Shown here: one piece after another, positions 2,215-19,919 of the stretch | Numbering within the stretch: the stretch's first letter is position 1 | Layout of the letters: each line of letters opens with the position of its first letter | NCBI GenBank assembly: GCA_937920275.1 | Contig: CALGVD010000088.1 | Coordinates: 1 to 36,646, forward strand | DNA from: an uncultured Pseudomonadota bacterium | Lineage (GTDB): Bacteria > Pseudomonadota > Gammaproteobacteria > Steroidobacterales > Steroidobacteraceae | Length of the DNA: 36,646 bases | Direction: 5' to 3' | The notes under the pieces: model-generated | What the model was told of the DNA's origin: nothing | The model's input: the letters and a program-made list of their open reading frames with translations, nothing else | The model's database searches: none | Position numbers and translations under genes: made by a program

Positions 2215-5200
2215 TCAGTTGCCCCCCACGCGCGCGAGATCGCGCGAATTCTCCTCGAAGGCCGCCATCACCGCCTCGTCCCCGGAGAGACCCTGGTCGT
2301 GGGCGCGTTGCAGACAGGCGAGCACGCGTTTGTAGTCCTTGGGGATCACGCGTGCGAAGCGTGCCAGCGTGCGCGGCCAGGTCTTGAGCAGCGCTGCGGC
2401 ATGGGTGCTGCCGGTCACCTCGGCATGACGGGCGATGAGTGCACGCAGCGCCTCCGCTTCGACGGGATCGTCGACGCTGCCGACCTCGACCATCTGCGCG
2501 TTGACACGACCGGCGGCGAAGGCGCCGTCCTCATCGAGCACATAGGCGACGCCGCCCGACATGCCGGCGCCGAAGTTGCGGCCCGTGGGACCCAGCACGA
2601 CGACGCGGCCGCCGGTCATGTATTCGCAGCCGTGGTCACCCACGGCTTCCACCACGGTGTCGACCCCGCTGTTGCGCACCGCGAAGCGTTCGCCCGCCAT
2701 GCCGCGGATGAACACCTCGCCGCCGGTCGCGCCGTAGAGCGCCACATTGCCGATGATCATGTTGCGCTCGGCCGGGAAGGTCGCCTCGCTCGATGGGAAG
2801 ATCGCGAGCTTGCCGCCCGACAAGCCCTTGCCGACGTAATCGTTGGCGTCCCCCTCGAGGGTGAAGGTCATGCCGTGCGGCAGGAAGGCGCCGAAACTCT
2901 GCCCTGCCGAGCCGGTGAAATGCAGACGGATGGTGTCCTCCGGCAAACCCGCTGCGCCGAAGCGTTTGGTGACCTCGCTGCCGGTGATGGTGCCGACCAC
3001 ACGGTTGACATTGCGGATCGGGAGGCTGGCCTCGACCTCGGCACCGCGCTCGATCGCCGGCTTGCACAGATCGAGCAGCGTCGTCACATCGAGCGACTTG
3101 TCGAGTCCGTGGTCCTGGTCGATCTGCCGATAGCGTCCGACCTCCGCACCCGAGTCGGGCTGGTAGAGGATGTTGCTGAAATCGAACCCCTGCGCCTTCC
3201 AGTGATCGAGCGCCACCTTCGGCTCGAGCCGATCGACGCGGCCGACCATCTCCTCGAGACGACGGAAGCCGAGCTCGGCCATGATCTCGCGTAGGTGGCT
3301 CGCGACGAAGCGCATGAAGTTCACCACATGCTGCGGATCACCCGCGAAGCGTTCACGCAGCCGCGGATCCTGCGTCGCGACGCCCGCCGGACAGGTGTTG
3401 AGGTGACAGACACGCATCATGATGCAGCCCACCGACACCAGAGGCGCGGTGGAGAACCCGAACTCCTCGGCACCGAGCAGCGCGGCGATCGCGACATCGC
3501 GTCCCGTCTTCAACTGCCCATCGGTCTCGACCGTGATGCGGCTGCGCAGATTGTTGAGCACGAGGGTCTGGTGCGCCTCGGCCAGCCCGAGCTCCCAGGG
3601 CAGACCCGCGTGCGTGGTCGAGGTGAGCGGTGAGGCACCGGTGCCACCGTCGTGGCCGCTGATGAGCACCACATCGGCATGCGCCTTGGCGACGCCCGCA
3701 GCGATGGTACCGACGCCGACCTCGGCCACCAGCTTCACGCTGATGCGCGCGGCACGGTTGGCGTTCTTCAGATCGTGGATCAGTTCCGCGAGGTCCTCGA
3801 TGGAATAGATGTCATGGTGCGGCGGCGGCGAGATCAGCCCCACACCCGGCGTGGTGTGCCGCGCCTTGGCGATCCAGGGATAGACCTTCGTGCCCGGCAG
3901 CTGTCCGCCTTCGCCCGGCTTGGCGCCCTGCGCCATCTTGATCTGGATCTCCTTGGCGCTCACCAAGTACTCGCTGGTGACACCGAAGCGGCCCGAGGCG
4001 ACCTGCTTGATCGCTGAATTCTTTGAATCGCCGTTCGGCAACGGCTGCCGACGCTCCGGATCCTCGCCACCCTCGCCCGTGTTGCTCTTGCCGCCGATGC
4101 GGTTCATCGCGATGGCGAGCGTCTCGTGCGCTTCCTGGCTGATCGAGCCGTAGCTCATCGCACCGGTCTTGAAGCGGGTGACGAGGCTCTCGACGGACTC
4201 GACCTCGTCGAGGGGGACAGGGTCGCCCTTCTTGAAATCGAGCAGGCCGCGCAGCGTCGAGAGGTTGCGTGCACGCTCGTCGATGAGCGATGCATAGGAC
4301 TTGTAGGTGGCGTAACTGCCGGTGCGCACCGCTTTCTGCAAGCGATGGATGCTCTCGGGGTTGAAGACATGGAACTCGCCGTCGGCGCGCCACTGGTACT
4401 GCCCGCCCGCGGGCAACGCGGGGCCGGTGACCGCACGCTCGGGGAAGGCTGCGCGGTGGCGCATCAGCGATTCCTCGGCGATCACATCGAGACCGACGCC
4501 ACCGACGCGCGACGCCGTTCCCGTGAAGTACTGGTCGATCAGGTCCTGACGCAGACCGACGGCCTCGAACACCTGCGCACCGTGGTAGCTCTGCACCGCG
4601 GAGATGCCCATCTTGGACATCACCTTGACCACGCCCTTGGTCGCCGCCTTGGCGAAGTTCGCACAGGCGAGCTTGTGATCGACATTGGTCAGGAGGTTGT
4701 CGCGGATCATGCCGTCGAGCGACTCGAAGGCGAGGTAGGGGTTCACCACATTGCAGCCGTAGCCGATCAGGAGCGCGAAGTGATGGACCTCGCGCGCCTC
4801 GCCGGTCTCCAGGGCGAGCGACACGCGGGTGCGCAAGCCTTCGCGGATGAGGTGATGGTGCAGGCCCGAGACGGCGAGCAGCGCCGGGATGGCGGCTTCG
4901 TCGCGCGACACGCCACGATCGCTCAGGATGAGGATGTTGACCTCGTCCTCCTCGACCAGGCGCCGCGCTTCGTCGCAGAGCTGCTCCATCGACTTGGCGA
5001 TGCCCTCGGCACCGCGGGCGGCGCGGAACAGCAGCGAGAGCGTCCCGACCTTCAGACCGGGCAACGACAGGCGCCGGACCTTGGCGAACTCTTCGTTGGT
5101 GAGCACCGGCGCCTTCAGTTCGACGCGGCGGCAGTCGGTCGGTCGCGGCTCGAGCAGATTGCCCATGGGGCCGAGCCAGACATCCGACGAGGTGATGATC

Positions 5201-6843
5201 TCCTCGCGGATGCTGTCGATGGGCGGGTTCGTGACCTGCGCGAAGAGCTGCTTGAAGTAGTCATAGAGCAGGCGCGAACGCTGCGACAACACCGCGAGCG
5301 GCGTGTCGTTGCCCATCGATCCCACGGCCTCGACGCCGTCGCGGGCCATCGGCGCCATCAGGATGCGCAGGTCCTCGAAGGTATAGCCGAAGGCGATCTG
5401 GCGCGCATGCAGCAGCTCGGGCTCCGGCGGCGGCAGCTTCGGCGCCGCCGGTAATTCTTTGAGGTGGACGAGATGCTCACCCAGCCACTCGGCGTAGGGC
5501 CATTCCTGCACCACGCTGCGCTTGATCTCTTCATCGTCGATGATGCGCCCCTGCTCGGTGTCGACCATGAACATGTGGCCGGGCTGCAGACGGCCCTTGC
5601 GGACGATGTCGGCGGGCGGGATGTCGAGTACGCCCGTCTCGGAGGCGGCGACCACCATGCCGTCCTTGGTGACCCAGTAGCGCCCCGGCCGCAGGCCGTT
5701 GCGGTCGAGCACGGCGCCCATGCGCACGCCGTCCGTGAAGCAGATCGCAGCGGGACCATCCCAGGGCTCCATCAGGCTCGAGTGGAACTGATAGAACGCG
5801 CGGCGGGCGGGGTCCATGGTCTCGTGCTTCGACCAAGGCTCCGGGATCATCATCATCATCGCGTGGGCGAGCGGACGGCCGGCGAGCACCATCAGTTCCA
5901 GCACGTTGTCGAACATCGAAGAATCGCTGCCGTTGACGTTGACGATGGGCGCGATCTTCGCGATGTCATCGCCGAAGAGCGAGGACTCGAGCTGCGCCTC
6001 GCGGGCGCGCATCCAGTTGACGTTGCCGCGCAGGGTGTTGATCTCGCCGTTGTGCGCGATGTAGCGGTAGGGGTGGGCGCGGTCCCAACTCGGGAAAGTG
6101 TTGGTGCTGAAGCGCGAATGCACGAGCGCGATGGCGGTCTCGAGGCGCTCATCTCGCAGGTCGGGGAAATATTGGTCGAGCTGCATCGTCAGCAGCATCC
6201 CCTTGTAGACCAGCGTCTTGTGGGACAGGCTCGCGACATACCAGGACTCGGCGCCGCCCAGCGTCGAGACACGGATCTCGTTGTAGGCGCGCTTGCGGAT
6301 GACATAGAGCTTGCGCTCGAAGGCCTCGACATCGGGCGTATCAGCGCCGCGCTGGATGAACACCTGGCGCATGAACGGTTCGCTCGCGCGTGCCGTCTCG
6401 CCGAGCATCGAGTTGTCGGTGGGCACCGTTCGGCCACCAAGATAGACCTGCCCCTCGGATTGCACCACGCGTGCGAAGGTCTCCTCGAGCCGTCGCCGCT
6501 GCGTCGAGTTGCGCGGCATGAAGATGATCCCGCAGGCGTACTCGCCGGGCTCCGGGAGCGTGATATGCGCCTGTTTGGCTGCGGCTTTCAGGAAGGCGTG
6601 CGGCATCTGCATGAGCACACCCGCGCCGTCGCCGGTATTGACCTCGCAACCGCAGGCACCACGGTGGTCGAGGTTCTTCAGGACCTCGAGCGCATTGCGC
6701 AGGATCTTGTTGGACTTGCGGCCCTGGATGTCCACCACGAAGCCCACGCCGCAAGCGTCGCGCTCGAATTGAGGATCGTAGAGGCCCTGCTTGCCGGGGC
6801 GGGTGGCGCGGACCGTAGGCCCGACGATGGTGGAATCATTCAT
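2215..6843 (-). CDS. gltB: Glutamate synthase large subunit
   Basis: Alpha subunit of GOGAT, 1542 residues, full length. Domains in order: class II glutamine amidotransferase, whose nucleophile after propeptide removal should be Cys31 in ERDACGVGF; the central domain; the FMN-binding synthase barrel ([11 protein letters not shown] and the [12 protein letters not shown] loop); a 3Fe-4S cluster site ([15 protein letters not shown]); and the C-terminal right-handed beta-helix GXGXG domain. The start is ATG at 6843, because a GGGAG lies eight bases before it. The frame also opens at a TTG at 6858, but that codon overlaps this ribosome site. A TATAGT-like -10 is visible at 6871-6876 on the minus strand with a poor -35. 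Confidence 0.97.
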
Positions 6844-6916
6844 ATGCGCTGCTCCCAAATCCCCGGCGGGACTATAACCACTGGTCGGGGCAGGAGAAAA
6901 GGCGTCCGCTCACATT

Positions 6917-6946
6917 GACTCATAAGCATGAGTCATCCAGACTCAT
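6917..6946. promoter_or_regulatory. Inverted-repeat operator of the toxin-antitoxin pair
   Basis: A perfect inverted repeat, GACTCAT-aagc-ATGAGTC, occupies 6917-6934. A third GACTCAT half-site starts 23 bp further on, at 6940, followed by an imperfect partner that runs into the antitoxin start. A TTGACT -35-like element (6915-6920) overlaps the first half-site. Ribbon-helix-helix antitoxins typically autorepress by binding such tandem palindromes, so this is most likely the operator of the 6950 gene. Binding itself is inferred. The region also lies between the divergent gltB and antitoxin starts. Confidence 0.6.
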
Positions 6947-6949
6947 GCT

Positions 6950-7252
6950 ATGACAAAGCGGCTTCAAGTCTTGTTCGATGAGGCCGAGTACGCCGCTCTG
7001 CAAGCCGCTGCGACCAGCCGCGGCATGACGATGGCCGAATGGGTGCGCCAAGCCCTCGCCGCTGCCCGCCGCGACGCCTCAACGGCGGATGTGGATCGCA
7101 AACTGGCGGCGATCCGCGCGGCCGTGCGCCACGCCGGGCCGACCGGCCCGATCGAGCGCCTCATCGGCGAGACTGAGCGCGGCTATGCCACCGGACCCGG
7201 GCCCGGGCCCGGACCCGGCAACGACCCCGCGGCGAGCGCGGGCGGCTACTGA
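6950..7252 (+). CDS. Ribbon-helix-helix antitoxin (VapB-like)
   Basis: A 100-residue antitoxin. Residues 1-45 fit a ribbon-helix-helix DNA-binding domain: a short beta strand (KRLQVLFDEAEY), then two helices with the MTMAEWVRQAL pattern. The C-terminal half should wrap the toxin. The next gene is a PIN-domain toxin 20 bp downstream, which makes the pairing clear. The start is ATG at 6950; no Shine-Dalgarno is visible, since the preceding bases are operator half-sites. The tail is odd: a Gly-Pro repeat (GPGPGPGPG) encoded by alternating GGGCCC-like units near 7195-7220, a length-variable kind of sequence at the very end of the protein. Confidence 0.85.
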   Translation: MTKRLQVLFDEAEYAALQAAATSRGMTMAEWVRQALAAARRDASTADVDRKLAAIRAAVRHAGPTGPIERLIGETERGYATGPGPGPGPGNDPAASAGGY

Positions 7253-10154: not shown

Positions 10155-10904
10155 TCAAAGATCACCCTGCAATGGACGGATCGTGATCACCTCGAGCGCC
10201 GCCCGCGAGGACAACGCGAGTGCGTCGATCATGGGCTGCGCGACATCCTCGGCCGCCATCATGCGCGCGACCTGCACAGGGTCCACCTCACCCCACATCG
10301 GCGTGTAGGCCGCACCCGGGCGCACCTCGAGGATGCGGATCCCGTCCTGGCGGCCATAGAGCCGCATGACATCCAGCAAGCCGCGCTGCGCGTATTTGCT
10401 CAGGCAATAGGTCGAGCTCTGCGCGAAGGGCTGCTCGGCCGCGATGGAGGTGACGACCTGGATCTGGCCGCGCATCCCGTGCCGCGGCGCCTGCGACTTC
10501 ATCGCAGCGTAAGCCCCCTGCAACAGCAGGAAGGTCGCGGTGACGTTCGTCTTCAGCGTGAACTCGAGGTCCTCGGGCGTCTGCTCGAGGAAATCTTTGA
10601 AACGCCCCACGCCTGCACTGTGGATCAACGCATCGATGCGGCCATACCGCCCGAGGCAGGCCTCGAGCGGCCGCAACGGGGCATCCGCGAGGTCGCAGGC
10701 GATGCTTGCGCATCCGACAGACCCCCCCTGCAGCTGTGCCACGAGCGCCTCGAGGTCGGCCTGGGTCCGCGCCGCGAGCATCAATCGAACCTGCGCGCCG
10801 GACTGCCGGGCGCGCGCCGCCAAACCCTCGGCCACCGCGCGGCCGATCCCCTTGCCGGCGCCGGTGATGAGGATGACGGATGGGGTGATGTCCTTCTCTG
10901 GCAT
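10155..10904 (-). CDS. Sepiapterin-reductase-like short-chain dehydrogenase
   Basis: A 249-residue SDR with the cofactor motif TGAGKGIGRA at the N-terminus, NSAGV-type strand (HSAGVGRFKDF), catalytic Ser in VVTSIAAEQ and Tyr-x-x-x-Lys in YCLSKYAQRG. Several stretches (LITGAGKGIGRA, AGVGRF, SKYAQRGL, MRLY, PGAAYTPMWG, IRP at the end) closely recall the bacterial sepiapterin reductases I know, such as that of Chlorobium, which reduce the side chain of 6-pyruvoyl-tetrahydropterin. The assignment gains weight because the 5' end of a PTPS-family gene lies head-to-head with it (10930) and a full copy lies at 17075. The function is inferred from similarity by eye; other SDR substrates remain possible. 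Confidence 0.8.
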   Translation of the reverse strand: MPEKDITPSVILITGAGKGIGRAVAEGLAARARQSGAQVRLMLAARTQADLEALVAQLQGGSVGCASIACDLADAPLRPLEACLGRYGRIDALIHSAGVGRFKDFLEQTPEDLEFTLKTNVTATFLLLQGAYAAMKSQAPRHGMRGQIQVVTSIAAEQPFAQSSTYCLSKYAQRGLLDVMRLYGRQDGIRILEVRPGAAYTPMWGEVDPVQVARMMAAEDVAQPMIDALALSSRAALEVITIRPLQGDL

Positions 10905-11029
10905 GACGAGCCTCTGCTACGACGATTCGATGCTTGAATCCTACGGAATCCGCATCCGAAAAGATGCGCTGACGTTCGCCGCCAGCCACATGACGGTGTT
11001 CCCGGACGGCTCGAGAGGGCCTTGCACGG
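10871..11029 (+). repeat. Left direct repeat flanking the Mrp island
   Basis: This segment repeats at 17016-17175 in the same orientation, offset 6145 bp. By eye the first 140 aligned bases contain 9 mismatches and no gap; similarity then fades over about 20 bases that include a one-base deletion. It starts inside codon 11-12 of the minus-strand SDR (10904 start), covers the intergenic region, and ends about 100 bp into the PTPS-like gene fragment. Left of 10871 and 17016 the sequences are unrelated. The two copies bracket the whole mrpA-G operon. Confidence 0.9.
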
Positions 11030-11172
11030 CCTCGGGAACTGCTGACGGTGCACTGATCGGTCGCATGCAAGGCACCCCGCAGGGTAAAATCAGGTTCTCA
11101 CGTTGGAGGCGGACCATGGCGACATTGGTCGGGACCACGGCACGCATTCAGCGTGTCGGAAGGCCCGGATAA
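10930..11172 (+). pseudogene. Truncated 5' fragment of the PTPS-like gene
   Basis: The first 28 codons match the PTPS-like gene at 17075 (MLESYGIRIRKDAL against MLESYEIRIRKDAL, then FAASHMTVFPDGS). A one-base deletion near 11020 and loss of homology then destroy the HGH zinc motif. The frame stays open for 80 codons through unrelated sequence and stops with TAA at 11170-11172, five bases before the mrpA ATG. The fragment cannot be a functional synthase, since it lacks Glu30, His33 and His35. If still translated, it could act as a short leader that couples ribosomes into mrpA, which has only a poor ribosome site of its own. Confidence 0.8.
11085..11090 (+). promoter_or_regulatory. Possible -10 element of the mrp operon
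   Basis: TAAAAT at 11085-11090 is the best -10-like hexamer in the 270 bp upstream of mrpA that lies outside the direct repeat. No good -35 lies 16-18 bp before it. It is the only AT-rich step in this stretch, which makes it a candidate promoter for the antiporter operon, but with little support. Confidence 0.3.
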
Positions 11173-11177
11173 CGGTG

Positions 11178-13979
11178 ATGCCGCTGCAGCTGCTCGCCGC
11201 ACTCGCGCTGCCCTGGCTCGCCGCGCTGGCGCTCTTCGCGCTGCCGAACGGGCGGCGCAACACCGCCGCCGCCATCGCGGGCGGTGCGACCCTGCTCGCG
11301 GCAGCGCTGCTGGCGATGCAGGGCCCGGCCGTGTTCGCGGGCGATGTCCCGCACGTCTCGTGGCCCTGGCTGCCCTTCGAGGGCGCGGACTTCGGGCTGC
11401 GGGTCGATGGTCTGGCGTGGACCTTCGCCTTGTTGGTGCTCGGCATCGGCGCACTCGTCGTGCTGTATGCGCGCTACTACCTCTCCGCCGACGACCCGAT
11501 GGCGCGCTTCTACGCGCTGTTCATGGTCTTCATGGGCGCCATGCTCGGTCTCGTGCTGGCGGACAACCTGCTGCTGTTGGTCGTGTTCTGGGAACTCACC
11601 AGCATCTCGTCCTTCCTGCTGATCGGCTACTGGCAGGATCGCGCCGACGCCCGGCGGGGCGCACGCCTGTCGCTCACCATCACCGCGCTCGGCGGGCTCG
11701 CGTTGCTCGGCGGTGTGCTGCTGCTCGGCAACATCGTCGGCAGCTTCCAGCTGGATGCCGTGCTCGCCGCGGGCGAAGTGGTGCGCGCGCATCCCTGGTA
11801 CGCGCCGACCCTGGTGCTGATCCTGCTCGGCGCGTTCTCCAAATCGGCGCAGTTCCCGCTGCACTTCTGGCTGCCGCAGGCGATGGCGGCACCGACGCCC
11901 GTGTCGGCCTATCTGCACTCGGCGACGCTGGTGAAGGCCGGCGTGTTCCTGATCGCCCGCCTGCATCCCACGCTCGCCGGCACCGACCTCTGGTTCTACG
12001 TCGTGTCGTTGACCGGTCTGGCGACGCTGGTGACCGGCGCCTACATCGCCATGTTCCAGCACGACCTGAAGGGCCTGCTGGCCTACTCGACCATCAGCCA
12101 TCTCGGGCTGATCACCCTGCTGTTCGGCCTCTCGACACCGCTCGCCACGGTCGCCGGGGTGTTCCATATCCTCAACCACGCGATCTTCAAGGCCTCGCTC
12201 TTCATGGCGGCCGGGGTCATCGACCATGAGACCGGTTCGCGTGACATGCGGCGGCTGCACGGGCTCCACAAGTACATGCCGCTGACCGCCGTGCTGGCGA
12301 TCGTGGCCTCCGCGGCGATGGCCGGCGTGCCGTTGCTCAACGGCTTCCTCTCGAAGGAGATGTTCTTCGCGGAGACGCTGCAGCTGGATGCCAGGCCGCT
12401 GTTGTCCGTGGCGATACCGCTGCTCGCCACCGTCGCCGCGGCATTCTCGGTCGCCTATTCGCTGCGCTTCATCCACGATGTGTTCTGGAACGGCGAGCCG
12501 GTCGCGCTGCCGCAGAATCCCCACGATCCACCGTTCTGGATGCTGGTGCCGATCGGCACGCTGGCGATGCTCTGCCTGCTGGTGGGCATCCTGCCGGCAC
12601 TGATCGTGGGTCCGGTGCTGGCCGTCACCGCAGCGCCCGTGGTGGGCGGTGCGCTGCCCGACTACTCTCTTTCGATCTGGCACGGCTTCAACCTGCCGCT
12701 GCTGATGAGCGTGCTGGCGCTGTTCGTGGGGGTCGCCCTGTACGTGATGCTGCAGCGGCTGTTCCGGCTGCATGACCTCGTGCACCTGCCGCGCGGTGGC
12801 CGCGAGATCTTCGACGCCACGGTCGCCGCGGCGGTGCGAGCGGCGCGTGCGCTCACCGACCTGCTCGTCAACGGCAGCGTGCAACGCTCGGTGCTGCTGA
12901 TCACGCTCGCCGCGCTCGTGCTCGGTCTCTTCACGCTGCTCGCACCGCAGCCCGCGACCGCGCCGCTGACGGCCGCTGCGACCTCGGCGGGCCCGGTGGC
13001 TTGGACGCTCTGGCTGCTCACGCTGTGCTCGCTCGCAGCGCTGATCGCGCGCCACCGCGAGCGGCTGGAGGCCTTGGTATACCTCGGCGTCGTCGGGCTC
13101 GCCGTCAGCCTGACCTTCGGCGCGCTATCCGCCCCTGACCTGCTGTTGACGCAGTTGCTGGTGGAGGTGGCGTCGATCTTGCTGCTGCTGCTCGCGCTGA
13201 ACTTCCTGCCGCAACGGTCATCGCGCACGGATCCGCCCCGGCGGCGCTGGCGTGACGCGGGCCTCGCCCTCGGCGCGGGCGTCGGCATCAGCACGCTCGT
13301 CTATGCGGTGTTGTCGCGGCCGCGTCCGGACTCCCTGGCGCCATGGTTCCTCGAGAACTCGGTCCCCGGCGCCTTCGGCACCAACGCCGTCAACGTGATC
13401 CTCGTCGACTTCCGCGCCTTCGACACGCTGGGCGAGATCACCGTGCTCGGTCTGGCCGCGGTGCTGGTCGCCGCGCTGCTGCCGCACACAAAGACAGCGG
13501 GGAACATCAAGTCACCGGGCGCCGCAGCGGGGGCTGGGCGCTCGCTGATGCTCGAGATCACCTCGCGGGTGATGCTGCCGCTCACCGCGTTGGTGGCGGT
13601 CTGGTTCTTCCTGCGCGGCCACAACCTACCGGGTGGCGGCTTCATCGGCGGTCTGGTGCTCGCCATCGGCCTGTTGCTGCCCTCTCTCGGCAGCGGCGTG
13701 GACTGGGTCGAACAGCGCTCGACGCCGCGCTTCGAGGCATGGATCGGCTGGGGTCTCGCCTGCGCGACGGTCACCGGTCTCGTCAGTCTGGCGCTCGAAC
13801 ATCCCTTCCTGACGAGCGCGTATCTCGCCCCGGTGCTGCCCGTGATCGACAAGGTGCCCATCGCCACGGCGATGTTCTTCGACCTCGGCGTGTTCCTGAC
13901 GGTCGCCGGCGCCGCCGCGCTCGCGCTCACGCGGCTCGGCCGGCTCTCCGGCGCGCCGCATGACGGGGGGAGGACATGA
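11178..13979 (+). CDS. mrpA: Mrp-type cation/proton antiporter subunit A, fused to subunit B
   Basis: A 933-residue multi-pass inner-membrane protein. The N-terminal two thirds is homologous to the NuoL/ND5 proton-pumping family (WELTSISSFLLIG, the KSAQFPLHFWLPQAMAAPTPVSAYLHSATLVKAG stretch near residue 240, SHLG in LAYSTISHLGLIT). Residues of about 600-730 form the DUF4040-like linker. From about residue 785 a MrpB domain begins (LEITSRVMLPL, then LPGGGFIGGLVLA). Such an A-B fusion is the six-gene, Pha-type form of the complex, which exchanges Na+ or K+ for H+ and supports alkaline or salt tolerance. The start is ATG at 11178, as the first residues are already a membrane helix; the longer frame from 11103 is hydrophilic. 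It overlaps mrpC by four bases. Confidence 0.93.
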   Translation: MPLQLLAALALPWLAALALFALPNGRRNTAAAIAGGATLLAAALLAMQGPAVFAGDVPHVSWPWLPFEGADFGLRVDGLAWTFALLVLGIGALVVLYARYYLSADDPMARFYALFMVFMGAMLGLVLADNLLLLVVFWELTSISSFLLIGYWQDRADARRGARLSLTITALGGLALLGGVLLLGNIVGSFQLDAVLAAGEVVRAHPWYAPTLVLILLGAFSKSAQFPLHFWLPQAMAAPTPVSAYLHSATLVKAGVFLIARLHPTLAGTDLWFYVVSLTGLATLVTGAYIAMFQHDLKGLLAYSTISHLGLITLLFGLSTPLATVAGVFHILNHAIFKASLFMAAGVIDHETGSRDMRRLHGLHKYMPLTAVLAIVASAAMAGVPLLNGFLSKEMFFAETLQLDARPLLSVAIPLLATVAAAFSVAYSLRFIHDVFWNGEPVALPQNPHDPPFWMLVPIGTLAMLCLLVGILPALIVGPVLAVTAAPVVGGALPDYSLSIWHGFNLPLLMSVLALFVGVALYVMLQRLFRLHDLVHLPRGGREIFDATVAAAVRAARALTDLLVNGSVQRSVLLITLAALVLGLFTLLAPQPATAPLTAAATSAGPVAWTLWLLTLCSLAALIARHRERLEALVYLGVVGLAVSLTFGALSAPDLLLTQLLVEVASILLLLLALNFLPQRSSRTDPPRRRWRDAGLALGAGVGISTLVYAVLSRPRPDSLAPWFLENSVPGAFGTNAVNVILVDFRAFDTLGEITVLGLAAVLVAALLPHTKTAGNIKSPGAAAGAGRSLMLEITSRVMLPLTALVAVWFFLRGHNLPGGGFIGGLVLAIGLLLPSLGSGVDWVEQRSTPRFEAWIGWGLACATVTGLVSLALEHPFLTSAYLAPVLPVIDKVPIATAMFFDLGVFLTVAGAAALALTRLGRLSGAPHDGGRT

Positions 13980-14350
13980 TGGAACTGCTGCTCGCCACCG
14001 CGATCGGCGCGATCACCGCCACGGGGATCTATCTCGCGCTGCGCTCGCGGACCTTTGAACTGGTGCTCGGCATGACGCTGATCTCCTACGCGGTGAACCT
14101 GTTCATCTTCGCCATGGGACGCCCAGTGGCGGGGCGCGCGCCGATCCTCCGCGAGGGCGTGCCGACCACGCTCGAGCACTACACCGACCCGCTGCCGCAG
14201 GCGCTCGTGCTCACCGCCATCGTCATCAGTTTCGCGATGACGGCGGTGTTGATCGTGGTCGCGCTGAAGCTGCGCGAGGTGTCCGGGGGCGATCATGTGG
14301 ACGGCGGCGACCCTGCCGGCGACAGCGGACGCGAGCGGGGTGATCCGTGA
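13976..14350 (+). CDS. mrpC: Mrp antiporter subunit C
   Basis: A 124-residue membrane protein of the NuoK/MnhC family: three predicted helices with the typical GIYLALRSRTFELVLGMTL segment and SYAVNLFIFAMGR, then DPLPQALVLTAIVISFA, the conserved stretch in MrpC and NuoK. It starts with ATGATG at 13976, overlapping the mrpA stop by four bases, and its own stop overlaps the mrpD start. It belongs to the hetero-oligomeric antiporter. The last 20 or so residues are hydrophilic and rich in Gly and Asp, with no assigned role. Confidence 0.93.
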   Translation: MMELLLATAIGAITATGIYLALRSRTFELVLGMTLISYAVNLFIFAMGRPVAGRAPILREGVPTTLEHYTDPLPQALVLTAIVISFAMTAVLIVVALKLREVSGGDHVDGGDPAGDSGRERGDP

Positions 14351-15876
14351 GGCCCATGGAGGGACTGCTGCCGCATCTGGCGGTGCTGCCCGTGGCCCTG
14401 CCGCTGTTGGCCGGCGCGCTGTCGCTGGTGTTGCTGCGCCACGCGGGCTGGGTGCGCGCGATCACGGTGGTCTCGCTGTCGTCGCTGCTGGCGATGTCGC
14501 TGGTGCTGCTCGTTCAGACCGCCGGCGGCGCAAGTTGGACCTATGCGCTCGGCGACTGGCCGGCGCCCTTCGGCATCGCGTTGGCCGTCGACCGGCTCGC
14601 GGCGATGATGCTCACCATCACCGCCGTGATGGGGATCGCTTGCCGGCTGGCCGCGGGCAACGAAGGCAGCCGTCGCTTCGACGCCCTGCTGCTGTTCCAG
14701 CTGGCCGGGCTCAACGGCGCGTTCCTGACCGCAGATCTCTTCAACCTGTTCGTGTTCTTCGAGGTGCTGCTGGCCGCCTCCTACGCCCTGCTGCTCGATG
14801 GCGCTGGAGCGGCACGGCTGCGTGCTGGCCTGCACTATGTGACCGTGAACCTGCTCGGTTCATCGCTGTTCCTGATCGCAGCGGCGATGTTCTACGGCGT
14901 CGCCGGCACACTCAACATCGCCGATCTCGATGCCCGTCTCGCGACCCTGCCGGCGTCCGACGCAGGCCTTGCGCAGGTCGCAGGCTTGCTGCTGCTCGCC
15001 GTGTTCGCCATCAAGGCTGCGGCGCTGCCGCTCGGCTTCTGGCTGCCCGGGACCTACGGCGCCGCGGCGGTGCATGTGGCCGTGCTGTTCGCGGTCATGA
15101 CCAAGGTCGGCATCTATTCGATCCTGCGCGTACATGGCGCGCTGTTCGAGGCCGTGCCGCAGACGGCGTCCACGGCCCTCCCGCTCGCCGGGCTCGCCCT
15201 GCCGTGGTTGCTGCCGGCGGGGCTGGCCACGCTGCTGCTGGGTGCAGCCGGGGCGCTGGCCGCGCGTGATCTGCGTGTGCTCGTGGCCTGGCTCGTGGTG
15301 GTGTCAGCTGGCACCTTGCTCGCGGCGCTCGGGCTTGGCACCGTGCCAGCGACCGCCGCAGCGCTCTACTACTTGCCCCACTCGACATTCGCCGCCGGCG
15401 CGATGTTCATCGCCGTCGAGTTCGTCGCACGCCGGCGGGCGGGCTCATCGACGCCGGTCGCCGCCGACTACCGGATCTACGCTGGGCGACCGGTACGCGA
15501 GGCGCCCTGGATCGCCGCGCTCTTCTTCGTGACGGCGCTGGTCGTGGCCGGACTGCCGCCGGGGTCCGGATTCATCGCCAAGGCCTTGCTGCTCGATGCC
15601 GCGGCGGCGACACCGGCGCACGCTTGGATATGGTCCGTCGTCCTGCTCTCCAGCCTCGTCGTGGTGGTCGCGCTGGCGCGCTGTGCGAGCGCCGTGTTCT
15701 GGGGACCGTCGACCGCGGCTGCGATCCCGCCGGCGGTGCAAGGCACCGGGGTCGGCGGGCGCGGCCTCCTGCTGGCGGCGCTGCTGCTGCTCGGATGCGG
15801 GCTCGTCATGGCGCTGTTCGCGCATCCGTCATACGACTTCCTGCGGCAGACCGCCGCGGCCTTGGGGGCGACATGA
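14347..15876 (+). CDS. mrpD: Mrp antiporter subunit D
   Basis: A 509-residue NuoM/NuoN-like subunit with about 14 membrane helices. FNLFVFFEVLLAASYALLL carries the membrane Glu conserved in these antiporter-like subunits, and FAIKAAALPLGFWLPGTYGAA holds the functional Lys. The GTG at 14347 is preferred because a GGGG ribosome site lies six bases before it and it overlaps the mrpC stop as GTGA; an ATG three codons later (14356) is possible. It overlaps mrpE by four bases. Together with MrpA it is expected to form the proton-conducting part of the complex. Confidence 0.93.
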   Translation: MRPMEGLLPHLAVLPVALPLLAGALSLVLLRHAGWVRAITVVSLSSLLAMSLVLLVQTAGGASWTYALGDWPAPFGIALAVDRLAAMMLTITAVMGIACRLAAGNEGSRRFDALLLFQLAGLNGAFLTADLFNLFVFFEVLLAASYALLLDGAGAARLRAGLHYVTVNLLGSSLFLIAAAMFYGVAGTLNIADLDARLATLPASDAGLAQVAGLLLLAVFAIKAAALPLGFWLPGTYGAAAVHVAVLFAVMTKVGIYSILRVHGALFEAVPQTASTALPLAGLALPWLLPAGLATLLLGAAGALAARDLRVLVAWLVVVSAGTLLAALGLGTVPATAAALYYLPHSTFAAGAMFIAVEFVARRRAGSSTPVAADYRIYAGRPVREAPWIAALFFVTALVVAGLPPGSGFIAKALLLDAAAATPAHAWIWSVVLLSSLVVVVALARCASAVFWGPSTAAAIPPAVQGTGVGGRGLLLAALLLLGCGLVMALFAHPSYDFLRQTAAALGAT

Positions 15877-16358
15877 GGCGGCTCATCCCGTATCCGCTGC
15901 GCTCGCTCGCGCTGCTGGCCTGCTGGCTGATCCTCAACCAGACGCTGCACCCGGCGCATTGGCTGCTCGGCGCACTGCTCGGGATCGCCTTGCCGCCTGC
16001 CTTGTCGGCGCTCACGCCGCGCGTCACGACGCTGCGTCGCGCCGGCCTGGCCTTGGCGCTGCTCGGCGTCTTCATCAAAGATATCGTGGTCGCCAACTTC
16101 GAGGTGGCGCGGCTCATCCTCGGGCCCGAGTCGGCGATCCGCCCGCGCTTCGTCTGGGTGCCGCTCGGCATCACCAATGAGCAAGGCATCGCCGTGCTCG
16201 CCGCGATGATCACCATGACGCCGGGTACGCTGTCGGCGGACATCGCGCCCGACCGTCGCTGGCTGCTGGTGCATGCCTTCAACGTCGATGACGAGGCGGC
16301 GCTGATCGGCGACATCCAGCAGCGCTACGAGCGGCCATTGCGGGAGATCTTCACGTGA
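15873..16358 (+). CDS. mrpE: Mrp antiporter subunit E
   Basis: A 161-residue subunit of the MnhE/MrpE family: two or three N-terminal helices (LIPYPLRSLALLACWLILNQ), then a cytoplasmic domain with TPGTLSADIAPDRRWLLVHA, the conserved MrpE signature, and the DIQQRYERPLREIF end typical of the family. It starts at ATG 15873, overlapping the mrpD stop (ATGA). The frame is open much further upstream inside mrpD, but this is coding shadow. MrpE has no counterpart in respiratory complex I and is needed for assembly or full activity in characterised Mrp complexes. Confidence 0.93.
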   Translation: MRRLIPYPLRSLALLACWLILNQTLHPAHWLLGALLGIALPPALSALTPRVTTLRRAGLALALLGVFIKDIVVANFEVARLILGPESAIRPRFVWVPLGITNEQGIAVLAAMITMTPGTLSADIAPDRRWLLVHAFNVDDEAALIGDIQQRYERPLREIFT

Positions 16359-16633
16359 GCGTCGTCATCCAGACCGGCGCGGACATCGCGCTGGCGATGC
16401 TGGCGCTCGCCATGCTGCTCTGCCTGTTCCGGCTGCTGCGGGGCCCCTCGATGGCCGACCGGGTCCTCGCGCTCGACACCCTATACATCAACAGTCTCGC
16501 AGGGCTGATGGTGGCCGGGGTGCGCCTCGACGATCCGACCTTCTTCGATGCGGCGATAGTGATCGGCTTGCTCGGCTTCATCGGCACGGTGGCCTTCGCC
16601 AAGTACCTGCTGCGGGGAGATATCATTGAATAG
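16355..16633 (+). CDS. mrpF: Mrp antiporter subunit F
   Basis: A 92-residue protein with three predicted membrane helices, of the MnhF/MrpF family. The RLLRGPSMADRVLALDTLY segment after the first helix is the family hallmark, and FIGTVAFAKYLLRGDIIE is the usual end. It starts with GTG at 16355, overlapping the mrpE stop (GTGA), which matches the tight overlaps throughout the operon. It shares eight bases with mrpG. Confidence 0.93.
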   Translation: MSVVIQTGADIALAMLALAMLLCLFRLLRGPSMADRVLALDTLYINSLAGLMVAGVRLDDPTFFDAAIVIGLLGFIGTVAFAKYLLRGDIIE

Positions 16634-16967
16634 CGCGGCGTGGGTGGATTGGATCGTCGCCGCCCTCATGGTGGGCGGTGCCGCGTTCGCGCTCGTCGGC
16701 TCCTACGGGCTGGCCAAGCTCAGCGACTTCTACAAGCGCCTGCACGGGCCGACCAAGGCGACGACGCTCGGCGTCGGTGGCGTGCTGCTCGCCGCCTGCG
16801 TCTTCTTCATCAGCGCGGGGCGGGGCGGCACCGAGCAGATCCTCGTCGCGCTGTTCCTGTTCATCACCGCACCGGTGAGCGCGCATCTGCTGGTGAAGGC
16901 CGTGCTGAGCCTGAACGCTGCCGATCGTCCGCCGCAGCCGCCGGATGACGGGCAAGGCCGACCGTGA
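16626..16967 (+). CDS. mrpG: Mrp antiporter subunit G
   Basis: A 113-residue protein with three predicted helices, of the MnhG/MrpG family. The conserved stretch is YGLAKLSDFYKRLHGPTKATTLG, followed by ITAPVSAHLLVKAVL. The start is TTG at 16626: a GGGGAG ribosome site lies six bases before it at 16614-16619, and it overlaps mrpF by eight bases. No earlier ATG exists in frame. It is the last gene of the operon; I see no intrinsic terminator before the right direct repeat begins at 17016. Confidence 0.9.
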   Translation: MNSAAWVDWIVAALMVGGAAFALVGSYGLAKLSDFYKRLHGPTKATTLGVGGVLLAACVFFISAGRGGTEQILVALFLFITAPVSAHLLVKAVLSLNAADRPPQPPDDGQGRP

Positions 16968-17015
16968 GCCAGGGCGTCGCAACGGTGTGACCCGGGCCGA
17001 GCGCCTGCGCGACGC

Positions 17016-17175
17016 GGATGACGGAGGGGGTGTTGTCCTTCTCCGGCGTGGCGAGCCTCTGCTACGATGTTTCGATGCTTGAATCCTACGAAATCCGCAT
17101 CCGAAAAGATGCGCTGAAGTTCGCCGCCAGCCACATGACGGTGTTCCCGGACGGCTCAAAAGAGTCGCTGCACGG
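17016..17175 (+). repeat. Right direct repeat flanking the Mrp island
   Basis: Second copy of the 10871-11029 segment, same orientation. Positions 17016-17048 are a relic of the first 11 codons of the sepiapterin-reductase-like gene read on the minus strand; its start codon has decayed (CAT in the left copy, CGT here). The rest is the intergenic region and the intact 5' end of the PTPS-like gene. Left and right copies thus each hold one intact gene and one remnant, as expected when a locus is split by insertion with duplication of the junction. Confidence 0.9.
17060..17068 (+). promoter_or_regulatory. Extended -10 promoter of the PTPS-like gene
   Basis: TGcTACGAT is an extended -10. The hexamer TACGAT (17063-17068) ends six bases before the ATG at 17075, so transcription would start at or next to the start codon and the mRNA would be leaderless. 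No Shine-Dalgarno is visible, which agrees. The left repeat copy reads TACGAC, losing the most conserved last T, so that duplicate is probably weaker. Confidence 0.5.
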
Positions 17176-17575
17176 GCACAACTACGTCCCCAGCCTCACG
17201 GTGCGGGTGCGCGACGCCTCCTTCGAATCCACCATCCCGTTCTCGCGCCTGAAGGCCGGCATGCGCCGGATCGCGGCCGCTTGGGACGAGAAGGTGCTGG
17301 TCGCGATCCGCAACCCCTTCCACGAGACGCTGCGCGACGACGGTCGGGAGTTCGAGTTCCGGCTCTGCGGCAAGCGCTATGTGTTGCCCGCCGACGAGGT
17401 GGTGCGCCTCGACACCGACAACATCTCCTGCGAGACGCTCGCGCGGACCTATTTCGACCTCCTCGAGGCGGAACTCGGCACGGAGCTGCACGCCGACAAC
17501 ATCCTGTCGGTCGCCGTGTATATCGAAGAGACGCCGGGCCAAGGGGCGGCCTTCGAACGGGTCATGTCGCCATGA
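17075..17575 (+). CDS. 6-pyruvoyl-tetrahydropterin synthase family enzyme
   Basis: A 166-residue member of the PTPS/QueD T-fold family, which acts on 7,8-dihydroneopterin triphosphate. Zinc ligands are His20 (FAASHM) and His33/His35 (LHGHNY). The Cys found in QueD (four residues before HGH) and in animal PTPS (six before) is absent; Glu30 instead gives ESLHGH, matching the E-x-x-HGH pattern described for PTPS-III enzymes, which release 6-hydroxymethyl-dihydropterin and can replace FolB in folate synthesis. The C-terminal DTDNISCETLA and VYIEETPGQGA are the usual substrate-contact motifs. It is about 45 residues longer than QueD. The start is ATG at 17075, from the promoter position; the frame is open to 17018. 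It overlaps the next gene by four bases, so it is operonic with hydrolase and hydroxylase. Confidence 0.85.
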   Translation: MLESYEIRIRKDALKFAASHMTVFPDGSKESLHGHNYVPSLTVRVRDASFESTIPFSRLKAGMRRIAAAWDEKVLVAIRNPFHETLRDDGREFEFRLCGKRYVLPADEVVRLDTDNISCETLARTYFDLLEAELGTELHADNILSVAVYIEETPGQGAAFERVMSP

Positions 17576-18978
17576 CGCGCCGCAACCCGGAGCCTGCCCG
17601 CATGCGCGCCTCCCTGATCGCCGGTGTTTGCACCGCCGTCATCGCCCTCGCCGCCGTCGCCGCGACGGGTGCGCTCGCAGCGACACCGCCGCCCGTCCTC
17701 GACGCCCGCGCCAGCGATCCGCTCGTGATGGGGTGGATGCAGGGCGACCCGCCGCCGCCCGAACGCCAGATCGCCTTCCACGACCGCTCGTACATGCAGT
17801 TCCCGCAGCTGCGCTGGAGCTTCTCGCATTGGCGCGAGCTCATCCCGACGGTCAGCGTCTCGCGCGGCCAAGGGCCCGTGAGCGCGCTGCCGCGTGCGCT
17901 GCGTGACGACCTCGACGCCGTGAGCTTCATGCCGATGGCCACAGCGGCGGGCGAACGGCCACGCATGACCTGGGCGGAGTCGCTGCTCGCCAACTACACC
18001 GACGGCATCGTCGTCCTGCACCGCGGCACCATCGTGTACGAGCGCTACGCGGGCGCGCTCACGGAGACCGGGCAGCACATCGCACACTCCGTCACCAAGT
18101 CGTTCTACGGCACTTTGGGTGCGATGCTGGTGGCCGAGGGTCTTCTGGATGAACGGGCGCGCGTGTCGCGGTATCTCCCCGAACTCAAGGGCTCGGCCTT
18201 CGAGGACGCCACGGTTCGCGAAGTGCTAGACATGACCACCGCGCAGAAGTATTCCGAGGCCTACACCGATCCCAACGCAGAGGTCTGGGACTTCGCGCGC
18301 GCCGGCGGCATCCTGCCGTGGCCGCCCGGCTACCAGGGCCCGAAGTCGCTCTATGAATTCCTGCCCACCGTGCGCAAACAGGGCGAGCACGGCGCAGGCT
18401 TCACCTACCGCTCGACCAACGCCGAGGTGCTGACCTGGCTGATCCGGCGCGTCACCGGACAGAGCGCCGCTGAGGCGCTGCAAGAACGCCTCTTCGGCCC
18501 GCTCGGCGCAGAGCAGGATGCCTACCTCGGCCTCGACCCTGCCGGCAACGGCGTGGGCGCGGGCGGCCTCAACCTCGGTCTGCGGGATCTCGCCCGGTTC
18601 GGCGAGATGCTGCGCCGCGATGGTGAGTGGAACGGACGCCAGATCGTGCCAGCGAGCGTCATCGCTGACATCCGCCGCGGCGGCGATCGCGAGAAGTTCA
18701 AGGCGGGCGGCTACGCGACGTTGCCCGGCTGGAGCTATCGCGCGCAATGGTGGATCTCCCACGACGACCATGGCGCGTACATGGCGCGCGGCGTGCACGG
18801 CCAAGCGCTCTACATCGACCCGAAAGCCGAGATGGTGATCGCCCGCTTCGGCTCCGCCCCCTGGGCGGGCAATGTGTTCCTCGACCCCACCTCCCTGCCC
18901 GCGTTCCGCGCGATGGCGGAGCATCTGCTGCGCGACCTCGACAAGCCCGAATCGGTCCCGGTGCGGGCGGCTCCATGA
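17572..18978 (+). CDS. Exported NylB/class C beta-lactamase-like serine hydrolase
   Basis: A 468-residue serine hydrolase. An N-terminal signal follows a short basic leader (hydrophobic core about residues 13-36, ending ALAATPP), so it should be periplasmic. The SxxK nucleophile motif is SVTK (Ser173, Lys176) and the catalytic Tyr lies in FTYRSTNAEVLTWL (Tyr279), as in 6-aminohexanoate-dimer hydrolase NylB and related esterases; the third motif is RGVHGQALYID. Members cleave amides or esters, and few are true beta-lactamases. The ATG at 17572 overlaps the PTPS stop by four bases; ATG 17602 is a plausible alternative with a shorter signal. It overlaps the following hydroxylase gene by four bases, which suggests a shared lipid or ester substrate, though this is inference. 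Confidence 0.88.
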   Translation: MTRRNPEPARMRASLIAGVCTAVIALAAVAATGALAATPPPVLDARASDPLVMGWMQGDPPPPERQIAFHDRSYMQFPQLRWSFSHWRELIPTVSVSRGQGPVSALPRALRDDLDAVSFMPMATAAGERPRMTWAESLLANYTDGIVVLHRGTIVYERYAGALTETGQHIAHSVTKSFYGTLGAMLVAEGLLDERARVSRYLPELKGSAFEDATVREVLDMTTAQKYSEAYTDPNAEVWDFARAGGILPWPPGYQGPKSLYEFLPTVRKQGEHGAGFTYRSTNAEVLTWLIRRVTGQSAAEALQERLFGPLGAEQDAYLGLDPAGNGVGAGGLNLGLRDLARFGEMLRRDGEWNGRQIVPASVIADIRRGGDREKFKAGGYATLPGWSYRAQWWISHDDHGAYMARGVHGQALYIDPKAEMVIARFGSAPWAGNVFLDPTSLPAFRAMAEHLLRDLDKPESVPVRAAP

Positions 18979-19919
18979 CGGCACCCGCCCACGAGAGGGC
19001 GGTTTCGGTCCGCCATCTGCCGACGGACGCATCGATGCTGACGCGGGTCGTCTTCTGGGCTCTGCAGCCGGCGTTGCTGCTCGGCGTGATCGCGACCTGG
19101 ATCGCGGATCCGGAGAATCCAGCGCTCTTCGGCCTGACCTTCCTCGGCGTCCATCTCCTGCTGGGTGCGCTCGAATACCGCATCCCGGCCCGTCCCCACT
19201 GGCGTCATCCGGCGACCGAGAAGCTGGTCGTCCTCGGCATCGCGGTGGTCAGCTTCATGGTCGGCGGCGCGGCGAGCGGTCTTTATGAGACCCATCTGAC
19301 GGCGCCGCTCGATGCGATCCGCGCGACGCTGCACCTCGACCTCTGGCCCCACCATTGGCCGCTCGTACCGCAGGCGCTGCTGGTGTTCTTCCTGAGCGAG
19401 TTCATCTGGTACTGGATCCATCGGGCGGAGCATCGCTGGACGCCGGTGTGGCGGCTCTCCGGGCACGGCGCCCACCACGCCTTCAAGAGACTCAACGCCA
19501 TCAACGCCGGGGCGAACCACCCGATCGAGCTGTTCCTGATCGTGCTGCCCGCGATTTCCGTCGACCTGCTGTTCGGCGTCGGCGCCGCAGCCTACGGCGC
19601 GGTGCTGCTGACGCTGGTGCAGACCGCGGTCGTGCACAGCAACCTGCGGCTGAACTCAAGCGTCATCGGCTGGCTCTTCACCACCAACGCCTGGCACATC
19701 CGGCACCACTCGGCCGACCTCGCCGAGAGCAACACCAATTATGGTTGCGCCGCCATCATCTGGGACCGGGTCTTCGGAACCTTCGGCGACAGTGCGGTGG
19801 TCGAAGCGGGCGTCGGTCCGCGCGAGCCGACCACGCTCGAGAAACTGCTGATGCCCCTCCGCGAACCGGAAGGCAGCGTCATCGCACCGACGGAGCGGCG
19901 CATCACGCGCGCCCCCTGA
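18975..19919 (+). CDS. Fatty acid hydroxylase superfamily membrane enzyme, AGMO-like candidate
   Basis: A 314-residue membrane di-iron enzyme with about five predicted helices. The His clusters are in place: HRAEH (149-153), HGAHH (164-168) and HIRHH (about 237-241), the HX3H, HX2HH and HX2HH pattern of the sterol desaturase/fatty acid hydroxylase superfamily. The ending NTNYGCAAIIWDRVFGTF resembles the C-terminal part of alkylglycerol monooxygenase, a superfamily member that uses tetrahydrobiopterin. Cotranscription with a PTPS-family gene makes a pterin-dependent hydroxylase worth considering; sterol or carotenoid substrates are alternatives. The start is ATG at 18975, overlapping the hydrolase stop by four bases. 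It ends 12 bp from the convergent antitoxin gene. Confidence 0.85.
   Translation: MTAPAHERAVSVRHLPTDASMLTRVVFWALQPALLLGVIATWIADPENPALFGLTFLGVHLLLGALEYRIPARPHWRHPATEKLVVLGIAVVSFMVGGAASGLYETHLTAPLDAIRATLHLDLWPHHWPLVPQALLVFFLSEFIWYWIHRAEHRWTPVWRLSGHGAHHAFKRLNAINAGANHPIELFLIVLPAISVDLLFGVGAAAYGAVLLTLVQTAVVHSNLRLNSSVIGWLFTTNAWHIRHHSADLAESNTNYGCAAIIWDRVFGTFGDSAVVEAGVGPREPTTLEKLLMPLREPEGSVIAPTERRITRAP

Follow-up and report, generated by a model that had tools for sequence, protein, structure and literature searches.

We analysed a 36,646-nucleotide stretch of genomic DNA from an uncultured bacterium of the Steroidobacteraceae (contig CALGVD010000088.1 of assembly GCA_937920275.1; the whole stretch is called the window below), which carries a run of three genes encoding a protein of the 6-pyruvoyl tetrahydropterin synthase (PTPS) family, a serine hydrolase and a membrane protein of the fatty acid (FA) hydroxylase superfamily. 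A sequence-only reading had joined these genes, with a divergent reductase gene, into a pterin-linked lipid hydroxylation system. The evidence presented here makes it fairly probable that the conserved unit is instead the divergent pair of PTPS and a sepiapterin reductase (SR) of the Chlorobium tepidum type, which would supply a biopterin-like cofactor, and that the hydroxylase is a recent, pterin-independent arrival (Table 1). The part of the earlier proposal concerned with cofactor synthesis was thus retained, whereas its link to lipid hydroxylation was lost.

Scanning genome contigs with the window PTPS yielded 74 loci, one of which (L084) gave no PTPS match, so that counts are based on 73. 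In 15 of these, a short-chain dehydrogenase (SDR) 45-96% identical to that of the window lies divergently beside PTPS, with the PTPS and reductase matches starting within 77 bases of each other; 13 other loci hold a less similar SDR (24-32%) within 1.5 kb of PTPS. A tree of 74 PTPS rows (the window and 73 loci) placed 15 SR-linked rows, from the window and 14 loci, in one clade (support 100/99) that spans Gammaproteobacteria and Bdellovibrionota, and one more SR-linked row, L053, outside it. PTPS-family matches occur in 10 of the 24 genomes of the genus, and eight of the matches are of the window type (the window's own genome, G000, in which the pair is interrupted, and seven others at 72-91% identity). 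All seven others carry an SR-like gene divergently adjoining PTPS, the match in L162 covering residues 1-155 only. The divergent layout that had been proposed as ancestral is therefore right, because PTPS and reductase are adjacent in relatives. Genes of locus L011 are 91-94% identical to those of the window. Some loci are cut by contig ends; within the SR-linked clade, 1545 bases follow the PTPS match in L011 and 128 in L015.

Among solved structures, the best match of the window SDR was the C. tepidum sepiapterin reductase (2bd0) at E 4.3e-57, compared with 1.5e-22 for the next match, which bears out its earlier description as sepiapterin-reductase-like. Residues F99 and W196 are marked in that structure in the available part of its description (PMC7520308), and the window protein keeps residues matching both. 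The F99 pattern was present in 13 of 15 linked reductases and in none of the 13 other SDRs that lie near PTPS. From these comparisons, the window protein is predicted to be a C. tepidum-type sepiapterin reductase that reduces sepiapterin or pyruvoyl-tetrahydropterin. In L012, a second SDR gene (6498-7229) shares four bases with the end of the reductase gene, and the same gene is present in L011; no second SDR of this type stands beside the window's reductase in the list of open reading frames (ORFs).

Together with the genome's FolE, the pair would most likely convert dihydroneopterin triphosphate to a side-chain-reduced, biopterin-like tetrahydropterin, with the synthase presumably acting before the reductase. 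FolE and FolB were each found in 22 of 24 genus genomes, G000 included, which, along with the reductase neighbour, favours such a product without proving it. FolB was also present in seven of the eight genus genomes with window-type PTPS, the eighth (G152) being 77% complete. Folate synthesis therefore does not need the window-type PTPS, and replacement of the folate enzyme was rejected as its main role. A likely user of the tetrahydropterin would be a phenylalanine-hydroxylase-family enzyme (PF00351) encoded elsewhere in the genome, a more ordinary user; PF00351 was found in 61 of the 150 family genomes as well as in G000.

PTPS proteins are sorted by the motifs CxxxxxHGH (biopterin type), CxxxHGH (QueD) and ExxHGH (folate type), according to the accessible text of PMC5041015. 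The window PTPS belongs to a subfamily in which KExxHGH is found in all 74 rows and the two motif-Cys positions are occupied by Gly (biopterin-type position) and Lys (QueD position), again in 74 of 74. Its motif marks it as folate-type and its neighbour as biopterin-type. Another Cys, at position 98, is conserved in 71 of 74 rows and might be catalytic. It is possible, if somewhat doubtful, that this subfamily (HMTVFPDGxKExLHGH...WDE), which lacks the motif cysteines and in most rows the triad His, reaches a pyruvoyl- or another diketo-type pterin along a different route, which a C. tepidum-type sepiapterin reductase would complete.

Several observations weigh against a pair that makes a biopterin-like cofactor and a hydroxylase that stands apart from it. 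The Cys of the biopterin-type (PTPS-II) motif was found in 0 of 74 rows. The triad-His column holds Glu in 68 of 74 rows, Asp in 4, His in 1 and Gln in 1. An AlphaFold model of the window PTPS (mean predicted local distance difference test score 93.9) was nearest to Plasmodium PTPS (1y13 and 2a0s), with a template modelling (TM) score of 0.86. A pyruvoyl-tetrahydropterin product is thus not assured, because of the ExxHGH motif, the Plasmodium-like fold and the Glu at the triad-His column. The W196 pattern was present in only 8 of 15 linked reductases (the L017 match being partial), and no SR-like gene was found near PTPS in 58 of 73 loci, with at least 900 bases available upstream in 69 of 73. 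A single SDR from beside a Competibacteraceae PTPS, that of L040, was tested and proved to be a generic SDR. PF00351 is also found in genus members with no PTPS match (e.g. G012, G065, G089, G118 and G144), so this enzyme does not depend on the PTPS/SR pair. Finally, the two overlaps between the three genes, each of the four bases ATGA, favour co-translation of the whole run here.

The motif and the fold are also what speaks for an unlikely alternative, that the subfamily is of the folate type (PTPS-III) and makes 6-hydroxymethyl-dihydropterin, and that this or a related pterin is the substrate of the SDR. ExxHGH is present in every row with no motif Cys, a profile of 32 rows (the window and 31 of 73 loci) found Plasmodium PTPS first (E 2e-21) and QueD structures only weakly, and the Glu of ExxHGH aligns with E37 of Plasmodium PTPS, which is named there as a catalytic residue. 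The model reached TM scores of only about 0.5 against E. coli QueD and against 1gtq, which we take to be rat PTPS. However, a PTPS-III is expected to stand in for FolB, and FolB is encoded in G000 and nearly all its genus; the SDR resembles sepiapterin reductase, and most rows have Glu in place of the triad His. The least probable reading considered here has the window protein serving as QueD (PTPS-I) in queuosine synthesis. QueC is encoded in G000, where the window PTPS is the only PTPS-family gene found, but the protein lacks CxxxHGH and scored 35.7 bits with the NCBIfam QueD model against a cut-off of 89.25. QueC was found in 22 of 24 genus genomes (20 above cut-off) and any PTPS in only 10, so the two do not travel together in the genus; a QueD role was rejected on motif, model score and distribution. 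From the same counts, QueD appears missing, replaced or missed in many genus genomes.

Neighbours of PTPS differ in other lineages. In 14 loci, mostly from Competibacteraceae, PTPS comes right after the end of a gene from a single cluster, and the member tested (L040) matched GT4-type glycosyltransferase models below their cut-offs. Such a glycosyltransferase-like gene recalls the pterin glycosides of cyanobacteria and Chlorobium treated in the available part of PMC3546692. In the Bdellovibrionota loci L019, L021, L022, L023 and L049, a second small gene, from a single cluster (PF01242 in L019), comes after PTPS together with ABC importer genes, which in L019 are accompanied by an NMT1/THI5-like binding protein.

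We further considered whether the three-gene run is an operon for lipid hydroxylation, in which PTPS and SR would make a tetrahydropterin, the hydroxylase would use it on a membrane lipid and the hydrolase would release or process the substrate. This is very improbable, even though three overlapping genes do stand beside the pterin-synthesis pair and the hydroxylase falls in the superfamily that holds alkylglycerol monooxygenase (AGMO). The run itself was as described earlier, with all three genes and both ATGA overlaps (17572-17575 and 18975-18978) present on the forward strand. The PTPS/hydrolase overlap was seen again in L011 and L012, both relatives found with the hydrolase, so this coupling is not due to chance; the hydrolase/hydroxylase overlap was seen in the window's genome only. 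The hydroxylase had no tblastn match at E 1e-6 in the 74 PTPS loci. Likewise, an FA-hydroxylase-type His pattern that recovers 40 of 40 superfamily rows was absent from ORFs of at least 150 amino acids in these loci, 63 of 73 of which hold at least 2.5 kb downstream.

Searches in the other direction gave the same picture. The one close relative of the hydroxylase among the 150 family genomes (68%) is in G078. That genome gave no match to the window PTPS; it does have another PTPS-family gene, on a different contig. At E 1e-10, the hydroxylase was not found genome-wide in G032, G100 and G138, the three other PTPS-bearing genomes of that sample, in a search that left out G150, G152, G155 and G158 (four of the eight PTPS-bearing genus genomes). 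Seven of 369 class genomes, G000 included, match the hydroxylase at E 1e-25; all seven have some PTPS, as do 278 of 369 overall, so co-occurrence across the class is not informative. Around nine hydroxylase relatives (that of G078 and eight more), tblastn at E 1e-3 detected no relatives of the PTPS, reductase or hydrolase, and the PTPS-family genes of their genomes were on other contigs, 320 kb away (G505) or not found. Homologues usually found without pterin genes had been named in the sequence-only reading as evidence that would tell against it, and this is what the hydroxylase relatives examined showed.

The active site of the hydroxylase points the same way. Residues essential in human AGMO are listed in PMC3617469 and PMC7911779, as far as their available text goes, and the former gives Glu137 as essential for tetrahydrobiopterin binding. 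Of 16 residues that the human enzyme needs for activity or cofactor use, compared at human spacing, the window hydroxylase matches 11, whereas 13 AGMO-type proteins, two of them from G000, match all 16. At Glu137 it has Arg (the residue after the second His), at Asp233 it has Asn, and Gln162, judged by eye, is also Asn; its first His box is two residues longer. A phylogeny that had been proposed to place the protein relative to AGMO grouped it with four relatives (97/94), apart from the 13 AGMO-type rows, which share one branch (100/100), in a tree that holds no animal AGMO and no characterised sterol or carotenoid enzyme and that carries a long-branch warning (e.g. own_C18). On residues, Glu137 and tree position, AGMO membership was rejected, and with it and the 0 of 74 linked loci, tetrahydropterin-dependent lipid hydroxylation found no support.

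The residue test alone does not define the AGMO-type group, because L136 has 15 of 16 residues but falls outside that set and elsewhere in the tree. An equivalent of Glu137 was also found in L087, L097, L135 and L136, so the statement in the accessible part of PMC3617469 that no other family member has it fails here. The two AGMO-type proteins of G000 (loci L124 and L125) are encoded on other contigs. AGMO-type proteins with no PTPS-family match in the same genome were found in eight genus members (G012, G049, G065, G089, G110, G126, G132 and G144), of which G126, G132 and G144 are only 81-83% complete. For the occurrence of AGMO, the available part of PMC3617469 names animals only, apart from a Leishmania activity.

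OlsE was the only NCBIfam match of the window hydroxylase at E 0.001 (E 1e-29), although the score of 103.9 bits is far from the curated cut-off of 475 for NF052566. Neither the window hydroxylase nor an AGMO-type paralogue had any match up to E 1 among solved structures. The hydroxylase looks like a chance recent neighbour, not a user of the pterin cofactor; it is OlsE-like and would probably act on a lipid without tetrahydropterin.

Gene content downstream of PTPS varies between genomes. Neighbour lists may hold false genes, because genes in the fetched loci come from a simple ORF picker. Of the PTPS loci examined, only the window, L011 and L012 have the hydrolase after PTPS, and from position 18901 on, the only DNA that the window shares with L011 and L012 is the first ~34 bp, still within the end of the hydrolase gene. 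The hydrolase would accordingly be a lineage-specific gene downstream of PTPS, with the hydroxylase a recent arrival joined at its 3' end; on the simplest account, the pterin pair has stayed stable while the region downstream of it kept changing, and this genome acquired the hydroxylase there. The N-terminus of the hydrolase resembles a signal peptide by eye, SxxK is visible in its translation, and its scores are far below all NCBIfam cut-offs listed. It matches 219 plasmid records, the eight matches listed being at 48-54%. Two plasmid homologues are annotated 'serine hydrolase', with no pterin gene among their annotated neighbours; a third one examined carries no annotation.

In the window, reductase and PTPS are separated by genes that we take, from their translations, to encode an Mrp-type antiporter. 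They are flanked by a direct repeat of 162 columns with copies 91% identical; compared with L011 and L012, the left copy is 96% and the right copy 92% identical. The PTPS remnant in the left copy starts at 10930, and 10930-11118 matches PTPS residues 1-63 at 49%. The antiporter genes do not lie between reductase and PTPS in any of the seven other genus members with window-type PTPS, and would have been inserted later; of the genus members seen, this genome alone has them there. Only 25 bp (10905-10929) lie between the reductase start codon and that of the PTPS remnant, about the spacing seen in relatives; their promoters must therefore extend into coding sequence, unless the genes are almost leaderless.

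Table 1. Location of the genes and repeats discussed, in window coordinates unless a contig of G000 is named
Feature	Position	Strand	Support
PTPS-family enzyme, ExxHGH subfamily without motif cysteines, 166 amino acids	17075-17575	+	PF01242, 49 bits (cut-off 22.4)
Serine hydrolase, beta-lactamase/NylB-like superfamily, 468 amino acids	17572-18978	+	PF00144, 110 bits
Membrane FA_hydroxylase-superfamily protein, OlsE-like, not AGMO-like, 314 amino acids	18975-19919	+	PF04116, 84 bits
Sepiapterin-reductase-like SDR, 249 amino acids	10155-10904	-	best PDB match 2bd0
Direct repeat, left copy: reductase gene start, intergenic gap, PTPS 5' remnant	10854-11012
Putative Mrp-type cation/proton antiporter genes, between reductase and PTPS	11103-16967	+	ORF translations
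Direct repeat, right copy, including start of intact PTPS	16996-17157
AGMO-type protein in G000	contig C32, 3075-4298	-	16/16 residues
AGMO-type protein in G000	contig C121, within 2583-3971	-	16/16 residues

If PTPS of this subfamily does take a different route that the reductase completes, the pair would give Gammaproteobacteria and Bdellovibrionota an undescribed bacterial way of making a biopterin-like tetrahydropterin. Literature searches, which most subscription papers lay outside, found nothing joining 6-pyruvoyl, tetrahydrobiopterin and Bdellovibrio, and nothing joining 6-pyruvoyl tetrahydropterin synthase, sepiapterin reductase and a bacterial gene cluster. The analysis also corrects an attractive but unsupported connection between pterin and lipid hydroxylation. 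Two leads follow from it: a PTPS lacking the motif Cys that travels with sepiapterin reductase, at odds with the motif rule by which PTPS subfamilies are sorted, and bacterial proteins elsewhere in the genome and genus that have all 16 AGMO-essential residues, though the eight genus members named above show no PTPS match.

Compared with known systems, the window PTPS shares with PTPS-III the ExxHGH motif and the closest predicted fold, but differs from it in the Glu at the triad-His column, in the 15-row clade paired with sepiapterin reductase and in the FolB of its genome. The biopterin pathway of PTPS-II plus SR, as presented in the accessible part of PMC5041015, is alike in having PTPS and SR genes together, here without CxxxxxHGH. 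The window SDR keeps the F99 and W196 residues of the C. tepidum enzyme, whereas the W196 pattern extends to only about half of its linked relatives. With NylB-like serine hydrolases, the hydrolase has PF00144 and SxxK in common. The hydroxylase resembles the ornithine lipid hydroxylase OlsE, albeit at 104 bits against 475. With AGMO it shares the FA_hydroxylase superfamily, but it differs in lacking Glu137, in its longer His-box spacing, in matching 11 of 16 positions and in grouping apart from the AGMO-type proteins.

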